In this document: positions 15,001-54,111 of the stretch, one piece after another | How positions within the stretch are numbered: position 1 is the stretch's first letter | Layout of the letters: every line of letters begins with the position of its first letter | Source: Pomacea canaliculata | Lineage: Eukaryota; Mollusca; Gastropoda; Architaenioglossa; Ampullariidae | DNA length: 64,000 bases | Assembly: GCF_003073045.1 (NCBI RefSeq) | Contig: NC_037595.1 | Span: 13,446,074-13,510,073 of the forward strand | Reading direction: 5' to 3' | Program-made: the position numbers and the translations under genes | Notes under the pieces: model-generated | What the model was told of the DNA's origin: nothing | What the model saw: the letters and a program-made list of their open reading frames with translations, nothing else | Databases searched by the model: none

Positions 15001-18000
15001 ATCACTTCTACCTGCCATGCCACTCTGCAGGTGATGATAAGAAGTGCTGCATTTCTCTGAGCACAAATATCCTATCAAAGCACGTCACGTGCAGACTAAA
15101 CGTGTTTTTAAACCCTGACTGGCAGTTAGAGACTTGGTCCCCCTGTCCTCAAGGTCTGTACACATCAGGACAACGTATGTGCACCGCTAACAAAACGACT
15201 GTAATTACTGGAGCTGAAGTCGCTGCTGATTAATGATGGTGTTGCTAAGGACAATACAATTCCGTTGTTTGCGTGTTTTCGTAGCTGAGCTCCACGCGAG
15301 GGGCTGGCGGGGTGGACGTCCTCTCAGGCTGAATGAGTTGCACTCACAACCCTTAGAGTTTGGGGAACGAGGCGGAATAAGGACATGAGCGTTGAATAAC
15401 TGAATGTTATCACACTAGGTGACTGTGTGCACTAACATTGACTCCACTGTGCGCGAGCGAGGTCATTAGGCTGTCACGTGACATTGTACAGCAAAGACGA
15501 TTAAGTGCGCTTAGGCGAGAGGATATTTTGTATGGATTTTGTATGGCTACATGCACGACACCATGCAGTTAGAATTGATATAAAATATGTTGAATACAAT
15601 ATCCTACTCATGCTAAGCGCCCTTTCTTGAAACCGCATAGACTGACTTTTTTTTTAATATTCAAGACAATAAGTGCGGCTCTTACAAAGAATGGGCACTG
15701 GACCATAAATACATAGAAACAATAATATATGCAATGTTATTTTTACTCGCTTCTTTGTGATGATAGTTTACAAACAAAATAATAATAAAACACTGATACA
15801 ACCAAGCTAGAAATAGGTTGATATATTAAATTATATATTAAATCATTAAATGAGATTATATCAATTTAACCTTTCTTTTCTTTAGCCTTTATCTGACTCT
15901 TTTTCTTTCTCTCTTTATTTCTCATTCAGTCTCTGTCTCTCTCTTACTCACTATATCTGTGTTTGTCATTCACTTCCTCGTTCATATTTAGTGATATCTA
16001 GTACCAAATTATTTATGATTTAGAAAACTAATCAAAAAGACTTGTATTTAGCAATTACATTTTACTGAAAACGTTACATATATTTGTAATCAATCCATAA
16101 ATCAGCGTATGAATGATAATTGAGTCCTAGAAATAATTCTTGCTAATTCTTGCAGGTTGTGGCTGTTTGCATCTTGTCATCGCCAGTCATTTTTGCAAGT
16201 GAGTGACATTCCACCTGTGACTTTAATAAAGGAAGAGAGAGGGTGTAATTGGTATTTCAGGTGAAAAACCCTTTAATCGAGTCGGGTAGCCTGTTACTTC
16301 TAACAAATTCAGGAACTAAATAAGCAAACCAAAAATTATCAACTGGGGTTTTCCATTTGTCAGCAAAGGTTAAATTACCAAAGAGAAGCAACTCCAAATC
16401 TGTCCCTTGGGTTTGTCAGCATGAATGATCGAGTTTGTGGACATTAGTATGAGGTGTGAGAGTTTGTAGACACAATAGGATGTTCCTCCTGGTACCCAGT
16501 GCCCAGAGGCTGCTGTCAGTGGATGGAGAAAGTCAGCAGCGGTAAATGATTCCTTCACAATGATTATATGTCAAACAAGAATATTTAATGTAATTATTCA
16601 ATACTCAGGTGATCAGACTGCCCACGCAAACATGACATGGCGGTTTGTAAACTCAAACGTGCTCATATCTGTTTAATAACATAAAGTATATTTCTAGACC
16701 ATTATAGTTCATGCTCAGAATGTTCAGTCGACATTTTATCAGAGAACACCTGTCAGCATTATTGCCAGGAGTTCAAATGTAATGTAAAGAACGAGAATTC
16801 AGGTAAAAGTGAACCCAAACTGTCGTTTTCTTGTCTTAAATCGAGATCACAGTTGGGACAAGGGGTAAAAACCTTATCCAGCTATTTATCTAATTCACTG
16901 ATTCTCAAATATTCTACCTCACAAAGTGACTAAAGTTATATAGTTAAATTATAGCACTATCCAACAGACACGCGTATATAAATGCAAATTTCTGTTTTAT
17001 AAAGCATACCTTTCAATATTTAAATTTTTTAAAGAACTGTGAAAAGGTAATTTATACTGAATATATAGTGACTGAATGGCTGTCAGTTAATAACTGTCAA
17101 ATAGATAAGGATGTTCCATCCACCACTGACCATTTACTGTTTGCCATCAGCACTCATGCTACCTACAAGGGGAGACTAGTTACTAATTGCTAGTAATCCT
17201 AATGAGAGCTGTCTCCCTTGATTACCAGCCTCAGTGTAGACAACCTCCAGCCGTGTCGAATGTGTGCCATTGGACTGCGAGTAAATCGCTGTTGGAGAGT
17301 AAATAAAGAATGACCCCCTGACCCCACCATAAACAAAAATATTAATTTCGTCGCAGACAAATAACGAGCATGATCTTTATGATTTTCACGGGCAGGATCC
17401 TCATCTACCTGCTCTCCTACCTGTCTGTCTATGTGTGGGTGTGTGAACTCAGAAATCGTGTTTAATTGTTCATGATAATAATTATGTGTACGACCTGTAT
17501 AAAGATATAAAGTGCCTGTATAAAGAATAATCTTTATCGTTGGCTACAGGCACGACGAACAGCGTGGAACCTACAACTTCAGCGACGACTGCCTCCCCCT
17601 CCGTCACCAGCACCATTAGCACCACCATTCAAACCAGCTCCAGCAGCGACGGCACCACCCCTACAGACAGCCCTACTACAGCAGTCAGCTCCCCTACTAC
17701 AAAGAGCGCCACAACAGGCAACGTCACTGCTACAGACAGATTCACTACAGATAGCTCTACTACAGGCAGTTCAAGTACAACTACAACCAGTTCCACTACA
17801 AGTAGCTCCACTACTACAGGCAGTCCCACTACCACAGTCAGCTCCAATACAAGCAGCTCCATTACTACAGTCAGCTCCGCTACAAGCAGCTCCACTACTA
17901 CAAGCAGTCCCATTACCACAGACAGCTCCATTACAAACAGCTCCACTACTGCAGACAGCAATACAAGCAGCCCCAATGCTACATATATCTACACTACAGG

Positions 18001-20907
18001 CAGCTCCATTACAGGCAGCACCAATGCTACGTACAGCTCCACTACAGGCAGCTCCACTGGTGACTATAACTTTCAATGTGTATTTTTGCTTGTGTGAGTG
18101 TACAAGACTGTATGTGTGCATGTGTATGTACTTGTTTATTTGTACGTTCAGGTATGTATATGTATATGTGCGCGCTCGTATATATGTCGATGAGCGACCT
18201 TTTCGACCCCATGAATGAATTTCACTGAATTCCTTCTGTACTTTTACTCGGCGGGTGGTGCAAGTCTGTATTCTCCATTAACACTGTCGTCCGAGACAGG
18301 TCGTACAGCCGTGTGCTACGTGCTTACAAGTTTTGGTACATAAAGAAAAATACATTTTCTAGATCGAAATAATATCCGTGAAAAAAATGGGAGAAACGGA
18401 TAGCCAGTTGGTTAGAGCACTGACGTTCAAATCCTCCCCCCGGTCGACCTACCTGTCGTGAGTATTGAGGGAGGTAAGGCAGCGAGGGGGAGATGATGGG
18501 CACTGCCATCACAAAAACGGTGACCCCGAGAAATGTGAGATTTCCACAAACTACCTGGACAAGAGTTTACACATGTACTCTAAAAATCACGAGAATATGA
18601 ATAGAAGTAGAAGAAAAGAAGGGAAGTCTCAAAAAAGAAATTCACTGAGCAATGAAGTATGTAGCAAGTGAAATGTAGTGTAGTGTATTCTTAAAGGCGC
18701 CCAAGTGATGCGTTCTTCATACACACACTAAGTTCCGTAAAGAATGCTAAAGTTTCCTCCCCTTCCTTTTCCCCCTCCCACCATAGCGTGAAATTGCTGC
18801 AAGGTGGAAGCACTTTCCTACTAAACCAACCAACCAACTTTCTTACTTATGTGTAAATAATTTCTTCCCCTTTTGGAGACTATTGTTTACTAAATTCTGT
18901 GAACACCATTTAAATTCTTATTTGTCCAGATACAGACATTTGAAAATAAATAGACGATTTATGCTTTTCGATTCCACAGCTGGTGTAACAACCTCCAGTC
19001 CATCAGCTAGCACAGCAAAGGCTTCGACAACCACATCATCAAGCACAACAAGAACTTCATCAATTCCAAGTAAGTAGTATGATCTCGAAAATGAGGACAA
19101 GATCTCTACCGAGACAAAATAATACATTGTATGGTCACTGGTGGTGGTGATGGTGGTGGTGGTGGTTGTTGTTGTTGTTGTTGTTGTGAAACACGCATGG
19201 ACACTTGGTTATCGTGAATTGTAAACTTAAGCGTGTTTATGCTGTGTTGCATATCTGCGATGAAAATAAAAACGAAAAATCCTTAAACACTGAGCTGCAT
19301 TCTACTCCCACTTTACATATGTAAACAGTTCGAAAAAATCCTCTTTTTTTGTACAGATCAGGTATCCTTTAGTAAGCTGCAACAATATGGTCAGAAACGG
19401 TAATCCTGAATATTTTTTAATTTGTTAAAATAAGTGAACTGGTTCATTGATTCTTAACAGGCACCTCAACTAAAAGCACCACTACGACCACGCAGACATC
19501 GACGGCGTCGTCAAAATCAAACACTCAAGACAACGGTAAGTCGTGGTATGGACAGGTTAAGACCTGTTGCAAGGTGTTGTACGAATTAACCCAGACCCCT
19601 CGACTACCCAAGTTTAGCTACAGACCACACTAATAAGCGGGTATTCATGACGGGTGAATGGTCTTGTTGGTCAGCAAGCCTCCATTGGGTACTGAGGTAT
19701 TCAAACGACCACTGTCTTCACTGTCTTGGCTGTTGGGGAGAGTAGGTACCTGTGGATGGAGGGTTGTTAGTAAAGACGAGGGAATCGGGGTAGAAGTTTG
19801 TGTCTAAAATATTAGGATAATTTATCCTACTGTCAATCATGAAAAAAAATTGGATAGCACATTTTCTTACTTAAAAGTAGGCTCCCGCTTGCAAACGCAA
19901 AACAAGCAAAAACGTACAAATATATTGTACACAGAGATAAACACATCACAACAAGACCTAGAGAGACTGTTAGTGCGTGCGTGCGTGAGTTCTAGCTCAG
20001 TCACATGTCTATATTTAGAATCGCATGACTGCCTTCATTCTTCGTAATCTTAAATTAGTTTGCGCATGTGTAACGCGAGGCGCAGGTGGACACGACAACA
20101 CAAAGAGGTTTTATTCTTGTTTTTGTTTTAACCTCAGATCGTGTGTTTTATTCTGCTTGAGGTCATCGCAGGTCAACTCATTTAACAAAGCGTGTAGAGT
20201 TGTAGAGTATGTCTACATTGTAAACCAGTCTTGTCACGAACGCAGGCGCCTACACGTGGGAATGATCTCTGTATGACTCACCTTTGTCATATCCTTTGTT
20301 GTTGCAGACAGAGGAGGTATCATCGCGGCTGTCGTCATCCTTGTCATCGCCATCATTATTGCAGTCGCTTTATTCGTCGTCTTCTGGAAGCGACGAAACC
20401 AGTAGGTGTCATGGAAATCAAACATCATCTTATCTAGATAGATATGTGGATGGAAACGATGCTAGTATAATTGTTGTTGTATTTTAAAAGATGGCGCTGA
20501 CCTGGACAATGGACCTAACTTTTGTGCGCCACACTGTACAACTAGAATGTAATAATTAAATTGTATTAATTTCAAAACAGAACCTGCTTAAATAATGTGC
20601 AGTTCCACAATGTCTTTTATAACGACTGTAGGATGAACAATTGCATGAATAGAATTATTATGTGCGTTGTCCGTGCATTCGTAAAATAAATATCAGCAGG
20701 CATCCCTACTACAGACATGTTTGTTGTTTGCTTTAGGCAATGGTGTAAGGCACGCACACGCTACAGAAGTACCAAACTACCAAGGTAAGGGACATTGTGT
20801 TCAATCATTTTCTTGTAACAAAACTGTGTTCTGCTTTTGGGTGTGAGCAAGTGAGTAAAAGAATGAGTGGGAGGCTAAAGTGAACGAGTAACTAACTCTG
20901 TGTGTAC

Positions 20908-20971
<64 letters not shown>

Positions 20972-23900
20972 AAACAACATATTGTCTCGCTGTATGATAT
21001 TGGCACGAATTCATCAATTTATTAAAAACTAGCGTCGATGATGAAATTTTGACCAGTAGTTTAAATTCTTCTTTCACGTGTTACATGTATTTTTTGGGAT
21101 ACCGAGATGCTGAGTTATTAATATTGCTTCAAGGCGCAGAGAGAACAGGAAAAACAGACTTCACGAGACAGACAAAATTGTGGCCAAAAATGAAACAGAA
21201 AGAATGATAGAAACATAAGTATATGATAGCAAAATATTGTAATTAGAACCCACAACTTATTTCCCCGCATCTACCTGAGCTCATCTTGAAGTCTGTAAGT
21301 TGTCGCGTTCTGTAACATTGTAAAACTCTTGTCTTCTTTAATAGGAAGAGAATGAAGATGAAGTACTTTGCTCAATACCTGGCACTTCTACACAAGGATT
21401 CTGGACTTCTCTTCCAAGAACAATTTGAGGTGAGAGCCTGTGTGGTGTGTTAAGACACATTTCGCAAAGTCTGGTTGCCTCATGTCTCTTGTTGTCCATT
21501 TGTGAGGAACATCATACATCATGTCATTGCTGGGTTGGCGCTCAATGGCTGGAGATGTATGACATGGCCGACAACCGTAGAAGGTCTAGCACAATGAAGA
21601 ACAAAGAAGAAACGCTAATAGGTCTGACTTTTACTGACCGTTGACTCGCTGGTCATGGATGATTGAACGCCGTCTGGACTCTAGTGAGAGACTAAGTAAT
21701 ACTCCGAGACATTGATGAAAGGCTCATGTTTCTGTCTGCAGGAACTACAGAAGAACAGTCCCAGAACATACTCATTCGACGCCGCGCTGGCAGACGAAAA
21801 TAAAATAAAAAACCGCTACGTGAACATCGTGCCATGTAAGAGAATATTTTTATTTATAATTTTTTTATTAGAAATAACTGCAGGGGTGTTTCAGGAGATG
21901 CAATTTGTGAAAAATAGGTTGCACAGCATGGTGATGGGGAACCGATGAAAGGATAAAAATAAGAGAAAGCAGTTTGTGGTCCACGACATGTCCTGTCCCC
22001 TTGTATTCCAATGATTTGTGATATCAAACCAATGAGATGGAATCACACCTCTATTTCTGTCAGTAGCATTTTTGATTGTCTCACGTTTCAGCTATTCTCT
22101 TGACATTTGCCAAGTAGTAAATTATTCGATTTTCTTCTGAAGATTAAACTTTTATCACTCTTTGTCTTGGCTTTTTTATCCGCTACAGACGACCACACTA
22201 GGGTCAAACTCACCGTCGATTCTGAGGTCGGGGGCTCGGACTTCATCAACGCCAGCTACGTCCCCGTACGTCTCGCTTTTCTTTGTCAGTCTCCTGTGTT
22301 TGGCTACAGTTGTCTCTACTTGTATGTCTGTCTGTGTGTCTTTCTATGTGTCTGTGTGTCTTTCTCTGTGTCTGTGTATCTGCTTGACTGATATCTCCAC
22401 CCTCTCTGTTCAGTTCTTTCTCAGTCTCTGTCCCAAATGAGAAATGGCTTGTGGCTCAATTGTTTAAGTCAAGAAAACCTGTCTCAAATTCTGCCGATAT
22501 TTTATCCTTGCCTTTATCTTTTCTTTCATTCCTCCCTCAGCATACAGCTGTGTAAATTCTATTGTCTGTCTCTCAGTCTGTCTGTCTGTCTCGGCATCTT
22601 CACTCAGTCACCGTATTGTTCGTTTTGTGTACAGGGCTATTCGTCACCCCGTGAGTACATCGCTACCCAGGGCCCCCTAGCGAGCACCGCAGACGACTTC
22701 TGGCGCATGATTTGGGAACAAAAGTCTGGAGTCATTGTCATGCTGTCAGACCTTCAAGAAAAAGGACGAGTAAACAGAGTTTTACATCTTTCCGCTTGTT
22801 TTCATCTGTCTGCAAAAACAGTTTGTCGTGTCCACCCACCACAATAAGTTTATAGAACATAACGTTTCGTGTTCGTGCGTCTGTTACCTGTCTGTCTGTC
22901 TGACTGGTTGGCTGGTTGGCTGGTTCATTTTTATTCAAAGAGTGTGATAAGTAGTTAAATATAGCTCTGCCCAGCAAAGTCTTGGTTATTTTTTTTATTA
23001 TAAATATTAAGTATTGTATGACCTGCAGTTGGGGCATAATTCGTAACAGCAGTGTTGTGTTTTGTGTTTTGTGTGTGTTGTGTGGTGTGTGGTGTGTTGT
23101 GTGTAACCTGTCCTAACATTCCTAACGATACCATGTGCAGCGTAAGGTGGACAAATACTGGCCTGATGAGGCGAACTCACCTGAAAGATTTGGGGACATA
23201 ACCGTGGAGCTGACATCGGTAACAACATGCAGAAACTACACCATCCGCCATTTCAAAATCTCAGAAGTAAGCTACTATCATTTCCTAAAACTGGGGTGAA
23301 TGGCATGATACATATCTTACATCATCAACAAATACACGTGGACTCTAGCTGTAAGCTTCTCACTGGCCAGGGACTACATCATGCTGTAAATCTTCTTATT
23401 CAAGCCAAGTACCACCTTAAAGTGGTTGGTTTTTCTGATTAAATCCCTCGGTCACCCACCCACCCAAGCCTCACTCACTCACTGATTGAATCTCTCACTC
23501 GCTAGGACACTCAGGAAGAGCGGATGGTGCTGCAGTTCTTCATCCCCGGCTGGGAGGATCACGGTGCCAACCTGTCCCCTGATGACTTCCTGGGTTTCAT
23601 CCAGGCCGTGAGGCTGGAGGCGCGCACGAGAGAAGGGCCCATCACCGTCCACTGCAGGTACCTGTTCTTGTTGTCTCCCCTAGTCTTCCTAGAAACTATC
23701 GATAATTTTTATCCGATGCTCAAAATAAAGGTCAACAATTCAATCTGACGGGTGTTCCGGGAGATCAGAAGAACATTAGAGAAAAGAAAGATCACAGGGA
23801 AGCAGTCAGGGTGATTAAAACAATCCCTATTATTCTCTAGCTGAAGTAATGGTAGTTTAGACTGATTATTTGTCCATCAATGTCATTTGCTTTCAGGAAA

Positions 23901-41000: not shown

Positions 41001-44000
41001 ATGTTTGCGTAATACACCAACTGTAATATTCATTTGGACACTTTCCACAATAACAGAACCCACGCCATCTCAGAACGAAACCAGAATGATCAATCTGTCT
41101 GATGTATTTTTAAACCGTGCTGGAAATGAAATAAAGTGTTTAGTTAGGTGAAGTTTTCGTAAGCATTAACTTTTTATACAAACTTTTTATACAAAAGCGC
41201 ATTCGTTGCTTAATCCATCATCGTTCAGAAAGAGAAATGAACCGCTAAGACAAACAGATAAGTAGATAGATAAAATATTCTTTGCAGCTTAAGCTGAATT
41301 TCAAAAGTGTAAATCATTAGAAGTATGCAGAAGAAGAAACTTCTGGACCCTGTTAGCTTTAAACCAGTATCAGTATAGACATGATGGAAATGCACAAAAT
41401 CGGATTTTCTGGATCCTTGTCCTTAATCAGATCGGACAAGACATTCAGTGGCAAGTTAGGGAGGGCCACCGCCATGTCACTAAATTTAATTGTCAGGCTA
41501 GGTTTCTCCTGGAACTGGTCCTTGTTTGACAAGATGAAAAGGTTCTGAGTCTATGATAGTTCCAATTTCTGCCTTGTGGACACTGCCAGTGCACCCTGCG
41601 CCAGGCGACATCTAACTACTACTGTACACCTGCAAGATTTTCTTTTACAGAAAGTTTAAAAACATGAGTATGTGAGATTGCCTTTGATTGGAGTGAGACC
41701 CACCACGTGTAGAGCTGACGACAAGACACCATCCTTAAAATATCTTTCTCGGCCCTCATTCTAATGTTTTGCTTCCCTGTGCCTAAAAACAATGTGCTGT
41801 ACTTTTCCAGTTTTCTTTCCCATCCCCATCTTTAAGTCCTTCCTTGTTCTTTCTTGCTAACTGTTTGTATATCAGGCATGTACAATAGACTTTAGAGAGC
41901 TTTTCCGAATTCAATAATCAGACTTGACCTTTGGCAGCTGGCTGTTCGGAGATGTTGGATGCAAGGTGAGCGGCTTCCTGGTCTTCTGTCTGACCATGGT
42001 CAGTCTCAACACCCTCACAGCCATCGCCGTCTTCCGCTTTATTCTCGTCTGTAAGCCCATGTACCGTGAGTATCACCAGCCCTGCAGCTAATCGCCATCA
42101 TTTGTGAATCAGCTAGTAATTAACTAATTAAAGCTGTATATAAATATAAACCTCTCTATTTAAAGACACAAGTTGACATCAGATATACCTGCATTACAAA
42201 TTTCTATTTCTAAAATCCCATTTCTTGATATAGAAAAGTAGATAAATGGATTGTTAGATGGATAGATAAAATGTTTTCTTTCTCATCACACAACTGTTTG
42301 ACATTTCCCTTGCGGTATAATGTAAGAAACTGCCTTACTTTTCTCTCAGGAGATTTTTGTGCCAACTGGACTGAGTAGAAGGCAATCAATAATTTACAAT
42401 AAATAGCAACAAATAAATAATTTCTCTACTGCACCTAGCAAAACTGCTGGTGACAGATGTTTTTACCAATCCGCTTAGACAACTTTTCTTTGAATAAGAA
42501 ACTATTGCTTTCGAAATGCCTGGAGGGAAAACGTTTTCTGTTATTTTGCCTGATTTTTGTTTTGTTTTGTTTTGTTTTTTTGTTTTTTTTGTCCTGTTTT
42601 GTTTTGTTTTATTTTGTTTTGTTTTTTGTTGCTCATCAATCCAACAAAATTCCAAATATTTGGACGGAAGCCAGTAGCGTGGCACTATGTTTGTGCTTCC
42701 ACCATTGCTCAGGGCCCGATATTAACGCCGCCACACGGAGAGACTTTGAACTAATGAGTTTTCTTCTCACATGATGCAAAACGGCAGGTGTACTTGGCCA
42801 ACTATTGCAAGCTGCAACAATGCCTCGAAACAAATTTCTTTTTCTCTCGGCTACTTAAAGGCTGTGAAAAAAAATTCAAGAAGAAGAAAGTGTTAGGAGA
42901 TTATACTGATTAAAAAGACAAGAAAATGAAAAATGAAAAGAAAATCAAAAAGATATTGAAAAAGCAATTATGGATGTCCAGATGTACATTTTGTTTTTCG
43001 ATGTCTTGAGGTTGTGTTCTCTTATCAGATATTAAATGTTATTGCTTTAGAACAAAACCTGCTTTCCACCATCTACTTTTAGCGTACGTGCATTTTCCTG
43101 TTTTTCGATTTACAGTTATTTTAACTTTATTTTTACCGTCGTATTCTAAATAGTTTCCAGATTTTAATCAGTTAAGAGAATATTCATACATTGATGCCTA
43201 TCTGTTGCTTAATGTCAAAATTCCAGCTTTTCTTTCAAGTGTTAGCCGTAAAAGAAAGCTAAAAAAAAAGTGTGTATCGTCACTTTAATAACAATAAACC
43301 AACAAACTGTTGTCACAGGACGAAAGTATGGCTTAGCTGGAGAAAGAAGTGATGACCTCTGAACTTGCAGACTGAACTATATTATTATTGTGCCTTTCAC
43401 ACTGCATCACATTCGCTCTCACTCATTTCTTTCATCCTGCTTCATCTCTCAGATCATCTCCTACGGCCAGAGAGTGCCAAGCCTGCCCTGCTGGCCAGCT
43501 GGCTGCAAGCTGCTGTCTGGACATCTCTGCCACTGTTCGGGTGGAGCCAATACGTCCCTGAACCCTTCCTGACCTCGTGCACGGTAGACTGGGGCGGACG
43601 AAGCGCTAGCAACCTCTCGTACGTTGCCATGACAATCATCCTGTGCTTTGTCGTGCACTTGGTCATCATCTCGTTCTGCTACGTGCGAATTCTCGTGATA
43701 TCGCGGAGACTGACGTTTGGAGTCCGCAAGAACAGCAACATGATTCGTCTGGAGGAGGTGCTGTGGCACCACAAGGTGGAGACCGAGCGGAACGTCACAC
43801 GGGTAAGAGTTTCATCGTCGATGATTCTGATAAAGCCGTTTTCCTTAATGATAGAGAAAGTTAGCAAGCTTACGGAAGCTTTTCAGTAAAAATAAGAGTT
43901 GTGCATCGCTGCGTGAAGACCGTTACGACCGAATCCTTCCCATGACCATGACCATGAGCCTTGAGCTAGGAGTGGTCAAGCTGACTTAGCGGTTCTGCCT

Positions 44001-46536
44001 CACCGATGAACATACCAAGTACAGCTACGTGCGAAATCCTTTCCCCAAGTATAGCTACATCGACAGTCTCGTCCCATTCAAACTCAATGATCCGTGACAA
44101 TCTAGAAAACGGTTTCAATACATAGCGTATGACAACACCAGTCCTACCAGTCACAATAAATTTAGAAGTAAAGTGTGAAAAAAACTAAACTTTGACATCA
44201 TACTTATTCGACACTGGAAAATCTCTTCGAGAAATCCATCCGCCCATTAATGACTTACCGACGTCTATAACTGCATGGCATTGTTGAGTCCCACCCACAA
44301 GAATACTGGACTGAGAGAGTCTTCTTTATCAAATTCACTCAACAGTCTCAAATATTGTCAAATTTTAGAAATTCTCTTCCTGTATGTGTGTGAGTGCGTG
44401 CGTGCGTGCATGTGTGAGAAGTGTGTGTGTGTCTTTTTGAAACATCCGAAATACAATCGACTTTTATCAAATAGCTTCCCTCGATGACAATTCGCTAAAA
44501 TAGCAAATATGTCGTCCCAAGAGTAGGTTTAATTCACTTAGAATACATATTCTTTATTTAGCTTAGATGACAGTCTCTGTAGAACATATCTGGCAGCTTC
44601 ACTTTCATGAGTGGAACGTGGAACTCTGGCGAAATCCACGGAAAGTCTGCGCCTCTGTAGCCACTCAAGCAAATAAGGGATTCCAGTGCAATATTGACTT
44701 GTCTCCCCTTAATTATTGGCAGTGAGTGCATTTCCATTGATTTCTCCGAGACCCGAGAATTCACAACATTTGTTCTCGTCTGTCGTCGGAAACAAGGAAA
44801 TCCTCCACGGCATGAATCTTTCCTGTCTGTGGCAAGGGCGAGTAACTTTCTTGATAAGACCTCTTACGTAATTATCCCCCTTTCTGATGAACAGACATGC
44901 GCACGTTCGCTTATCGGATGTGACAGTGATGGTGATTGCGTGTGTGCATGTCTGCTTGCTTGTGGAAAGCATGCAAGAGCTAATATTATTTCTTTTATAA
45001 ACGGCTTTAGCTCTTTCTCCCTCTCCCTCTCCCTCTCCCTCTCTCTCTCTCTCACTCTGTCTCCGTGAGAATATATACACTTAAGGAGAGAGACAGATAG
45101 ATCAACACTAGCGGACTGACCGACAGCATGGTTGACCACTAAATACACACAAAGACATAGTCATTGCCACGGTCATTGTCGCGCCCTTTGACCTGATACA
45201 GATGTGCATGGTGATGATGGCGACCTTCTTGCTGTGCTGGACGCCGTACGCCTTGCTGTCCTGCCTGGCAATCGCTGGCCTGCCACTGTCTGCGGCGATG
45301 TCCACGTTGCCGACGATGTTTGCCAAAGTCAGCTGCGTCGTCAACCCCGTCATCTACGCCTTCATGTCGTCCAGCTTCCGCAAGATCTGTTGGAAGCTGT
45401 TTCCACGGGGACAGCGGAACCAGAATCGCGTGGCCACTGCCGGCATCGAGCTTCCAGGGAAATCACAGACGTACGTGAACTGGTGTGCGTGTGCGTGTGC
45501 GTGTGCGTGTGCGTGTGCGTGTGCGTGCTGTACATGTTTGTGTGCGCTCTCAAGTTTATGAGTGGGAGAAAAAGTAGATAACTATTTGTATCGGCGCACA
45601 TTTGAGTGATTTTGCCACTTTTTTCCTTTTACTCTAAGCTCTTAGTCAATCCGCTTACATAGCATTCCTACCTTTTTGAGTTGAAGAACATGATGAGAAA
45701 ATGAAAAAAAAAATGTATGGGGAATTCAGTTTGCTTCCTGGTCTACCAAGAATACAATTTCTCACCAATCACGTTTCTAAATTTGAATCATGGATACAAC
45801 ACTTAACTGATGTCTATTATCTTCTCGAATTCGTGAGATTATGCCGTAAAGCGATAATTTTAAGCTTTCATTTTTATTTGCATAGCCGCGCATGCCATAA
45901 CTCTTGCTTGTAAAGCTTCCGTTCGCTCTAGTTTCAGAGAAACCAATGAAAAAACCCATTAAAAGTGACACTTTTTCCGAACAGGCATAGGTCGCGAAGG
46001 GCACTAGCCCCACTCCCAACACCATCCCCGTGTGTGACGAAAGCTATGTATCGGGAAGCCAGTAAAAAAAAAAAAGAGTTATTATCATCCTAAGTTCACA
46101 TGCTACCTGATCACGTGACATATCCGAGAAAGAGAATAAGTGCGCATGTCAAATGTAACTTTTTGAGACAAGGACGAATGTTTTAAGTTAATCATTTTGC
46201 CGAGATTTTAATTTAGAGAATAAATTAAGCCTTTCTATATTTTTATCCTGGCATTGCATTTGCAATATGTTCATGCTGCACAATGAATACTGTTTACACA
46301 TGAGCATGCTTTATACCTGTCATGAGATCTCGAGGCTTAATCGCATTGTATCTATAAAAAGAAACAATATGGCCCGTTGAACAGAATGTCACAAAGCTGA
46401 CGTCACGCTACTTGTCTGTCACAGGCAGCCACAGCAGCGGGCTCCGGTGCGAGAGTACTGTGGTGACATGACACGGGCGGGGGTGTACATTGGCAACATG
46501 GTCATCAGTCTGGAAGTACAGTCCACCGTCTTCTGA
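37918..46536 (+). CDS. opsin (retinal-binding G-protein-coupled receptor)
   Basis: Six exons: 37918-38041, 40600-40765, 41938-42065, 43453-43802, 45202-45470, 46425-46536. Phases agree and give 382 aa, a normal opsin length. The ATG is in AACATGG; a glycosylation sequon NTS is at 14-16. Motifs: GN in TM1, NLATAD in TM2, Cys105 and Cys181 for the TM3-ECL2 disulphide, Glu175 in YVPEP (six residues before Cys181, the position of bovine Glu181), CWTP at 268-271 in TM6, and FAK with Lys298 in TM7, the Schiff-base lysine, followed by NPVIY. Family role: light sensing or retinal isomerisation in a membrane. Oddities: the DRY position reads FRF (129-131), and the position of bovine Glu113 is Ser108, so Glu175 is the likely counterion. 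The sequence looks closer to the neuropsin/xenopsin/Go side than to Gq rhabdomeric opsins, but the clade is not resolved. Confidence 0.94.
38053..38206. repeat. (CTGT)n with (CCGT)n tetranucleotide repeat
   Basis: Long interrupted CTGT arrays with a CCGT block, starting about 12 bases after the donor of opsin exon 1. Confidence 0.95.
40600..40765 (+). CDS. opsin exon 2 (TM1-TM2)
   Basis: Phase 1 in, phase 2 out. It carries GAFIGNVSVLVV of TM1, the QKAALRKLQNL loop and NLATADLLVTVTAYPL of TM2. The last codon is completed by exon 3, giving FHKHWLFGDVGC. Confidence 0.93.
42553..42630. repeat. (TTTTG)n low-complexity tract
   Basis: Irregular TTTTG units in opsin intron 3. The Phe-rich and Lys-rich open frames over it are artefacts. 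Confidence 0.9.
43453..43802 (+). CDS. opsin exon 4 (TM4, ECL2, TM5, ICL3)
   Basis: The largest exon, 350 bp, phase 1 in and phase 0 out at CGG|GTAAGA. It holds GWSQYVPEPFLTSC of the ECL2 plug and ends in VETERNVTR, the start of TM6 with an acidic residue where class A receptors keep their ionic-lock partner. Confidence 0.94.
45202..45470 (+). CDS. opsin exon 5 (TM6-TM7, retinal lysine)
   Basis: Carries LLCWTPYA of TM6 and FAKVSCVVNPVIYAF of TM7 with Lys298, then SSSFRKICWKLF as helix 8. It ends in phase 2 at AC|GTACGT, 12 bases before a TGTGCG array. Confidence 0.95.
45483..45527. repeat. (TGTGCG)n hexanucleotide repeat
   Basis: About seven TGTGCG units directly after the donor of opsin exon 5. 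Such alternating purine/pyrimidine DNA can form Z-DNA. If the intron were retained, it would encode alternating Ala-Cys. Confidence 0.95.
46425..46536 (+). CDS. opsin exon 6 (cytoplasmic C-terminus and stop)
   Basis: Entered in phase 2 after GTCACAG. It encodes QPQQRAPVREYCGD and a tail ending VQSTVF, with stop at 46534-46536. Intron phase matches exon 5. Confidence 0.82.
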
Positions 46537-48588: not shown

Positions 48589-48797
48589 CAGAGAAATCTT
48601 TTGAAAATGTTTACTTGGTTTGTTTAATTTTTGTACGCAACACAGAAATCTTCTGTAATATTTACTACTTTGTTTATTTTCGGTACGTAACAGAGAAATC
48701 TTCTGTAATATTTACTAGTTTGTTTATTTTCGGTACGTAACACAGAAATCTTTTGAAAATATTGACTAGTTTGTTTATTTTCGGTACGCAACACACA
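48589..48797. repeat. 50-bp tandem repeat, 4 copies
   Basis: The unit runs CAGAAATCTTCTGTAATATT, then TTACTAGTTTGTTTATTTTC, then GGTACGTAAC. Copies 2 to 4 are spaced exactly 50 bases apart; the first is offset by 52 and more divergent. Confidence 0.92.
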
Positions 48798-51823: not shown

Positions 51824-51853
51824 ATGGAGTCTTTCACGCAAGTTTCAGTCATG
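51824..51853 (+). CDS. defensin-like exon 1 (start of signal peptide)
   Basis: A 30-bp coding exon, MESFTQVSVM, ending in phase 0 at ATG|GTGAGT. The start has G at -3 and G at +4. Confidence 0.7.
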
Positions 51854-53079
51854 GTGAGTAAAGAAACGGGTTTTCATAGTCTGAAGAGAACGTGTAACGA
51901 ATCTGTTCTTAATGTTCTGGTACCTGCCACTGGCTGTGACATAATGCATATTGCATTTTTTGAAAAAAGGATGAGAAACTCAAACGTGAAACAAAACATG
52001 CTTTTATCTAAAGAAATGTCATTGCCTTTCGGGGCCAATTCAAGTGACATTCGGTTTTTCGAGTTGAAATTTGAGAAATTTTCAAGTTTTTAATGAAAAG
52101 CGCTAATGCCAGCGATACGAAACCATTAGTTGTCATGTTTTCCAAGGCAGCACCTGTTGAACTGTCAGATTGCATTTTTCCCCCTTATTTTTTTTTTATT
52201 TTTTTTTATAAATTTGTGCATGAATCCTCCAGCACTATTACGTTTCTTACATTTTACATTTATCCATTATCTTCATGGGCCACCAAACAAAAGTGGACCG
52301 CCTGCAGCTTTCCTTTTAAAACATTAATGTTTTCTTTCATCTTCGCCAGAAAAAGCAAGGCCAGCGACTTGTCATCTGCACCGCAGTTCACATCATGGTC
52401 CTGCTTTGCTCTGCTGAGACATCGAGAGGCCTCGAAATAAACAGCTCTGCTAACAGACAGCAACTTTTTCGTTTTTCGGTGCCATCAAGGTACAGAGGAG
52501 CTGTCCTAGGGCCGGAGACCTACGGGTGGCTGGAGGAGCGATATGGTCAAGATTCTTTGGACAAAGCCGGAGTCCACAGAGCTCGTATCCTTTACTCAGC
52601 GGCGCGCTCGGAACTATGTGTGTTTGTTTATTTGTAATCATGTTACAATATATTTTTTTTGATAATAGTAAACTGGCCATTAAGACGGTTATCTACTTGA
52701 CTGTCTGGTGGTAGGTTGCTAGGTTGGATGGATGCTTTGTATTCACTGTATGTTCCTGTATGATCATGCACAATCTTGTAAGCCGATAGAATGAGAGAGC
52801 AAAAGGAATTGATAGATAGCGAAATATTTCTTTAGTTATCGAATTTATGGACAAATGATTTTTTGACCCGTGGTTTTCTTTAATCAAAATCTAGCCACCG
52901 ATGAACATGCTTGTGGACAGAAGGGGTGGTGTAAAGACAGTTGTCTCCCTACAGAAACAAAAGACTGGACATTGAAAGACTTGTGTGGTGTACTTAATTG
53001 TTGTGCTCCATTGGAATCAAGTGACTACGAACACTCGGAGGATCCTTCTAAAACCGAGTCGATATATCTACAGTCGTAA
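51824..53079 (+). CDS. big-defensin-like secreted protein
   Basis: Three exons (51824-51853, 52350-52617, 52895-53079) give 160 aa, with phase 0 then phase 1 introns. Residues 1-32 form a signal peptide (hydrophobic 17-32, ending LLCSA) split by intron 1. Residues about 57-92 (RYRGAVLGPETYGWLEERYG... AGV) resemble the N-terminal domain of big defensins (G..V.P..F.WL...YG..A...AG). Residues 104-136 have six cysteines, 106, 112, 116, 130, 135 and 136, spaced C-X5-C-X3-C-X13-C-X4-CC with GWC after the first gap. Horseshoe crab and bivalve big defensins have C-X6-C-X3-C-X13/14-C-X4-CC and the same GWC. The family acts as secreted antimicrobial effectors. Odd: a 24-residue acidic tail after the last Cys, and a charged rather than hydrophobic N-terminal domain. 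Antimicrobial function is inferred, not shown. Confidence 0.8.
52350..52617 (+). CDS. defensin-like exon 2 (signal h-region and N-terminal domain)
   Basis: Acceptor TTCGCCAG. It begins KKQGQRLVICTAVHIMVLL and carries the big-defensin N-terminal-like domain. The donor is T|GTGTGT in phase 1, the weakest junction of the model but the one whose phase matches exon 3. Confidence 0.75.
52895..53079 (+). CDS. defensin-like exon 3 (six-cysteine domain and acidic tail)
   Basis: Acceptor AAAATCTAG, phase 1. It encodes TDEHACGQKGWCKDSC, then a 13-residue loop and CGVLNCC, followed by a tail with six acidic residues and one Lys, and a TAA stop. The defensin fold on its own exon matches the modular layout known for big defensins. 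Confidence 0.85.
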
Positions 53080-53282: not shown

Positions 53283-53288
53283 AATAAA
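53283..53288 (+). terminator. polyadenylation signal AATAAA (defensin-like gene)
   Basis: A hexamer about 205 bases after the stop. A second candidate is at 53557-53562. Confidence 0.4.
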
Positions 53289-54111
53289 AATTGAATCAGA
53301 GGATATACAACTAAATTCTGGCGACAGTGAAGAGGCGCAAGCTGATCTATAGTTTTGCCATGTCTACCGGCACGACGCATTGACTGTCGTTCAGGGTACC
53401 TAGACAGGCGATCAACAAAGAGGCGGACAAAGGGGAAAAACTGGAACTAGCCATACCATGCAGGACATGAAGACTGTTGCTCAAGTCTTGCTGCGTCTGT
53501 TCTCTCTGACGACCAGTTCCTGAGCTATCTCTCCATATATATATATAAAGTATGACAATAAAGAAATAGCTTTAAAATCTTATTTTTGTTTATTTCATTT
53601 TTACACCAGTTTTTTTTCAGTCCATTTTTGTTACTGTTTCAGTGTTACATTTTGTACGATGAACGTTGTATGCATATGCCTTTTGAAATATCTTCTTGCA
53701 CTTTTATCTTGTAAATGCCTGGCAGCAAAGTGTGTATTTCTAATTCTTAAATGAGACAATGCAACTTTTAGTTATCAAAAATAATACAATTTTGTACTCT
53801 TGTTTGTCTTCCTGAAAACGATAGCTTCTCATCCACCCTACGTGTTTGGAAACTGACTTTTAAAAATTCTTGAAAATGACAAGGTACTCTTCTAGCCACC
53901 TTTTGCCCTTTTCTTAGAAAAAAAAAAAGAGAAGCTATATGATATATAAAGTCGTCAGTTGGTCACTCACATACAAGGGTTAATAAAATACTTCACTCAC
54001 ATGAGATACAGAATATCTATACATCTGATGTACTGTAGTAAAGAGAGCAGTGTTTTTAGTCTTTCTCTTGCTTTCATTCTTTTTTACTTTCTGTTTTGCT
54101 CTCTCTCTCTC

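Follow-up and report, generated by a model that had tools for sequence, protein, structure and literature searches.

The window, the 64-kb stretch of Pomacea canaliculata DNA analysed here, carries on its plus strand a locus that we identify, with little doubt, as a relative of the big defensins. At the sequence level it has three joinable exons, a hydrophobic leader, a big-defensin-like N-terminal domain and a six-cysteine domain of the beta-defensin type. The big defensins are regarded as ancestral to the vertebrate beta-defensins. The N-terminal domain of the snail gene is predicted to fold as in the family, and yet it is polar, departing from the family property of a domain hydrophobic in bulk. 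As a joint explanation, we have good confidence that this is the only detectable big defensin gene in the genome, that it is very probably the one already in print, and that it would work by the effector mechanism proposed below.

Structure of the gene

The three plus-strand exons (51824-51853, 52350-52617 and 52895-53079) can be joined into an open frame for a precursor of 160 residues. The sequence, coordinates and matching phases of the exons are as the original prediction gave them, and the proposed signal peptide agrees with a hydrophobic leader in the Kyte-Doolittle profile, in which the top three windows begin at residues 16-18. The features of the locus are listed below.

51824..51853, plus strand: coding portion of exon 1 (residues 1-10, MESFTQVSVM), with donor ATG/GTGAGT
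51854..52349, plus strand: intron 1, phase 0, GC 0.36
52350..52617, plus strand: exon 2, with the remainder of the signal peptide, the pro-segment, the N-terminal domain and the linker
52350..52415, plus strand: part of the putative signal peptide, residues 11-32, with the hydrophobic stretch LVICTAVHIMVLLCSA; cleavage after A32 was guessed by eye
52488..52580, plus strand: N-terminal big-defensin domain, residues 57-87, predicted order b1-a1-a2-b2
52618..52894, plus strand: intron 2, in phase 1 (phase I), immediately upstream of the cysteine-rich region, GC 0.33 in 52617-52894
52895..53079, plus strand: exon 3, with the cysteine-rich domain, the acidic tail and the TAA stop (53077-53079)
52912..53004, plus strand: beta-defensin-like six-cysteine array, C106-C136, C-X5-C-X3-C-X13-C-X4-CC
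53005..53076, plus strand: acidic C-terminal tail of 24 residues, net charge -5, pI 4.1
53283..53288, plus strand: AATAAA, candidate polyadenylation signal, a pattern match only

Donor sites were scored with an approximate weight matrix, and all donor scores and ranks are approximate accordingly. On this matrix, the donor of exon 1 ranks in the top 0.4% of the 4173 GT dinucleotides of the window. The final codon of exon 1 (51851-51853) is a second in-frame ATG, and a polypyrimidine-CAG stretch lies directly 5' of the start of exon 2 at 52350. Exon 2 encodes residues 11-99 and contributes one base, the first, to codon 100. A further AATAAA is located downstream, at 53557. A sigma-70 promoter scan of the window was set aside as inapplicable to an animal gene.

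Two phase-1 donors fit the end of exon 2, one at 52618 (TAT/GTGTGT, score -0.16) and the other at 52585 (CTC/GTATCC, -5.16), and intron 2 is in phase 1 whichever of the two is taken. The donor at 52618 outscores about 89% of the 4173 GTs; the GC content is exon-like in 52585-52616 (0.56) as against intron-like in 52617-52894 (0.33). The 160-residue model aligns through the linker to the oyster protein Cg-BigDef1, giving 42.6 bits with 6qbl as against 32.5 for the shorter model, and the numbering 104-136 originally given for the cysteine domain agrees with an exon 2 ending at 52617 (cysteines 106-136). The shorter exon 2 (end at 52584, 149 residues), with its worse donor and worse match to Cg-BigDef1, was rejected as first choice and retained as an alternative. 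It is favoured by 2rng of Tachypleus (45.9 versus 30.5 bits) and slightly by 8bgk (39.0 versus 35.9 bits), and because these two sequences match the shorter form better, the end at 52617 is regarded as probable and not as proven.

Relationship to the big defensins

The 160-residue model was compared with 177,635 distinct PDB sequences, and all four matches at E<=10 were big defensins, the best at 5e-10, indicating that the proposed big defensin relationship is sound; four out of four were likewise big defensins with either end of exon 2. With exon 3 alone, big defensins made up four of the five matches (6qbk, 1.2e-7; 8bgk, 3.3e-7; 6qbl, 7.3e-7; 2rng, 0.001). When exon 3 was left out, exons 1 and 2 gave five PDB matches, none being a big defensin and none being significant. 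Relatives were also sought among microbial and viral sequences with a query that left out exon 1, the leader and most of the tail; pattern stretches were found (17 and 174), and none of them was confirmed by tblastn.

It had been predicted that standard searches may miss the gene, and Pfam at E<=10 indeed gave no family for the 149-residue model or for either half of it. Similarly, a search of the genome with the Defensin_big profile, PF14862, detected nothing at the snail locus. This profile of 55 positions scores a Tachypleus fragment at 36.2 bits and the C-domain of oyster Cg-BigDef1 at 14.5 bits versus a cut-off of 25; since the latter falls below the cut-off, the profile is insensitive to the cysteine domain. 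We infer that PF14862 rests largely on the hydrophobic N-domain, the part most changed in the snail, and this would explain why Pfam misses the gene. With PF14862, other members with a changed N-domain may escape annotation pipelines.

The six cysteines are located at residues 106, 112, 116, 130, 135 and 136, in the spacing and with the GWC that had been claimed. Allowing X5-6 in the first gap and X13-14 in the third, the array has a single occurrence across all six frames of the 64-kb window and none in 40 first-order Markov windows. The GWC is kept in the cysteine domain of the snail, and so are D, H, E, D and G, which do not vary in an alignment of four rows. The array falls within the published big defensin motif, C-X(4-14)-C-X3-C-X(13-14)-C-X(4-7)-CC (PMC6805989). 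The reported difference in the first gap stands against oyster 1 and Tachypleus (X5 versus X6), but it lies inside the published range of X4-14 and does not set the snail gene apart from the family. Beyond the array, the chains of the solved relatives stop two or three residues past the matched stretch.

For the N-terminal domain, the local alignment with Tachypleus reached a score of 57 over 35 columns, a score attained by none of 5000 shuffles (mean 16.8). The alignments with the oyster proteins were far weaker, their scores being reached by 117 and 368 of 5000 shuffles. The domain was modelled from its single sequence with AlphaFold2 at a mean pLDDT of 71.4 (76, 88 and 84 in the core blocks), and the predicted strands and helices coincide with those published for Cg-BigDef1 or are displaced by no more than one residue. 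Foldseek returned 24 matches for this model, with 6qbl first and 2rng second at a probability of 0.98, whereas the remaining 22 did not exceed 0.08; the E-values of these two were 0.19 and 0.20, and none of the 24 was below 0.001. Oyster BigDef5 (8bgk) was absent from the 24 matches and from the VIA lists. The buried core of Cg-BigDef1 consists of Y11, V16, V20, L24, L33 and I38 (PMC6805989), and five of the six positions are kept hydrophobic in the snail (Y58, L63, L71, L80 and V85), T67 being the exception. On sequence and on the predicted model, the domain is a homologue of the big defensin N-domain and is predicted to share its fold. The N-terminal resemblance, described at the outset as weak, is genuine as judged from the shuffles against Tachypleus and from the two big defensins at the top of the Foldseek matches. 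The proposed check of the fold succeeded in part: the N-domain gives the b-a-a-b order of the family, whereas the single-sequence model of exon 3, with the C-domain, was of low confidence (pLDDT 53.6) and found no Foldseek match.

Among the named relatives, Cg-BigDef1 of Crassostrea gigas (PDB 6QBL/6QBK, PMC6805989) aligns with the snail protein over both domains and the long linker between them, the linker of the snail being two residues longer in the 160-residue alignment. Cg-BigDef1 has an X6 first gap, is cationic and carries a dibasic pro-site, whereas the snail protein has X5, is acidic and carries an extra acidic tail; neither the dibasic pro-site nor the cationic charge seen in the oyster members is present. 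The big defensin of Tachypleus tridentatus (PDB 2RNG) provides the best match to the N-domain (Foldseek rmsd 1.4 over 36 columns), but differs from the snail in its short linker, strongly hydrophobic N-domain and X6 gap. The beta-defensins share the type of six-cysteine array and the phase I intron (PMC7203481), and are without the N-terminal domain that is present in the snail.

A polar N-terminal domain and its predicted consequences

The core of the snail N-domain (30 residues) has a GRAVY of -0.94 and a net charge of -1. The corresponding values are 1.03 and +2 for Tachypleus, 0.61 and +3 for oyster 1, and 0.68 and +3 for oyster 5, so that among the four sequences compared, of which the snail is the sole gastropod, the snail domain stands out as polar. 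An N-domain hydrophobic in bulk is described as the family hallmark, a property retained across big defensins (PMC7203481), and the snail gene departs from it though the domain itself is present. For this reason, we refer to the gene as a homologue of the big defensins or, in the way Gerdol et al. count it, as a big defensin by descent, and lower the claim of like function. The pattern of substitutions suggests that the fold and the core were kept and the exposed face exchanged.

The predicted mature peptide has a net charge of -5 and a pI of about 5.1. Acidity alone is not new, since big defensins range from anionic to cationic, with no electrostatic role established (PMC7203481). No KR or RR was found before the N-domain, the sole dibasic pair in the precursor being KK at residue 11. 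A prodomain is usual in big defensins "with few exceptions" (PMC7203481), and because of these exceptions a pro-segment ending in KR or RR was not counted as required. The R46-Q47 junction resembles that of the oyster, whose mature peptide starts with a cyclised glutamine (PMC3182236). That the two-domain fold was kept in a freshwater snail while the N-domain went from hydrophobic to polar and charged and the tail went acidic is a tentative proposal, to which we give somewhat less than even weight.

By analogy with the family, the precursor would be secreted, and its cysteines would pair 1-5, 2-4 and 3-6 as in Cg-BigDef1. The pro-segment may be removed near R46 and Q47, at a monobasic position with no KR or RR site, and the mature peptide would then act as an immune effector on microbes. 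Such an antimicrobial role is, in our judgement, reasonably likely. In the oyster, the hydrophobic N-domain provides salt-stable contact and nanonets (PMC6805989). Since the N-domain of the snail is polar and charged and the whole peptide acidic, hydrophobic membrane contact and high-salt nanonet assembly are expected to be weak or absent, loss of the assembly being a possibility that we hold with some doubt. If the peptide kills at all, the killing would be salt-sensitive and would reside in the cysteine domain, acting at the low ionic strength found in a freshwater animal and perhaps once the acidic tail has been removed.

The same set of features, a mature peptide of net charge -5 and pI about 5.1, the polar N-domain, the acidic tail and the lack of a dibasic pro-site, could also belong to a secreted homologue that has gone from antimicrobial work to signalling, to a component of egg or mucus, or to enzyme inhibition. 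We consider this unlikely, although it deserves more weight than the other alternatives: the spread of the family from anionic to cationic, with no established electrostatic role, takes force from the argument on charge, and the GWC and the invariant D, H, E, D and G are kept in the cysteine domain. A gene in decay, with its frame still open and its splicing or expression lost, would explain the weak donor and the lost features. Neither donor of exon 2 is strong, whichever model is taken, and relict big defensin pseudogenes occur in bivalves (PMC7203481), but the frame stays open through all 480 bases of the three coding segments and the two introns match in phase, the core positions, the cysteines and GWC are conserved, the changes at E72, E73 and D78 fall outside the core positions, and the P. 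canaliculata copy is counted as a gene by Gerdol et al. (PMC7203481); decay is thus very improbable. The possibility that unrelated open frames have been joined by chance, for which the lack of a significant PDB sequence match for exons 1 and 2 alone might speak, is practically discounted by homology at 5e-10 over both domains in the correct order, by the independent fold match of the N-domain and by a cysteine array found in none of the 40 random windows.

Genomic setting and significance

In the neighbourhood of the gene, 20 of the 76 open frames of at least 90 codons were scanned with Pfam. Two plus-strand frames at 43356-43886 and 45136-45558, which lie on the strand of the defensin gene about 6-8 kb upstream of it, match a rhodopsin-like seven-transmembrane receptor (Pfam 7tm_1, 3.3e-9 over positions 96-181 and 1.9e-5 over positions 201-260, the second of these below the cut-off). 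In the plus-strand frame 22104-22388, there is a weak match, below the cut-off at E 0.003, to the beginning of a protein-tyrosine phosphatase domain (Pfam Y_phosphatase). A long plus-strand frame at 17531-18094 runs over a degenerate tandem repeat (17780-18058, periods 15 to 84) and codes for a Thr/Ser-rich, mucin-like stretch with no Pfam family. At 48589-48795, a 50-base tandem repeat is present in four copies (87% matches), or alternatively as two copies of 101 bases.

The genome was searched with four queries, and three of them reached the snail locus. The snail protein gave three matches at E<=10, its own exons twice (best 2.2e-38) and a third at E 0.79 with a stop; PF14862 gave four matches, none over the cut-off; the Tachypleus protein gave three, of which exon 3 was the best (0.023) and the others were at 0.24 with two stops and at 5.0; and oyster BigDef5 gave exon 3 as its single match (1.2e-5). 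No convincing second big defensin locus was detected with these four queries, and very divergent copies could be missed because the exons were searched one by one.

A big defensin gene with the conserved phase I intron has been cited in the genome of P. canaliculata (Gerdol et al. 2020, PMC7203481), and in gastropods the start codon is described there as moved into exon 1, giving a phase 0 intron. Both introns of the snail locus agree with this published gastropod architecture (phases 0 and 1). Since one locus was found, it is very probably the gene of Gerdol et al. 2020: the species, the phase I intron and the exon 1 start with its phase 0 intron all match. The suggestion that the gene extends the family by a new member has accordingly to be given up, the P. 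canaliculata big defensin having been cited with the same architecture, and little is added as gene discovery because the species was already in the 2020 survey. No remark on a polar N-domain in the P. canaliculata gene was found in the available part of the text of PMC7203481, and no other statement on the gene in the available parts of the Pomacea and gastropod big-defensin literature.

The N-domain is thought to have been kept since hydrophobic contact functions in salt water, and one of 78 big defensin sequences was non-marine in the study that discusses this idea (PMC6805989). Freshwater bivalves and gastropods were added in the 2020 review, which also describes the salt idea as partly questioned (PMC7203481). 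With a freshwater member that combines the predicted fold of the family and a polar N-domain, a single synthetic peptide would allow a direct test of this idea. If the reading given here is true, the snail gene would provide a test of whether marine salt keeps the N-domain hydrophobic, and would represent a natural separation between possession of the ancestral N-domain and hydrophobic, salt-stable nanonet assembly.
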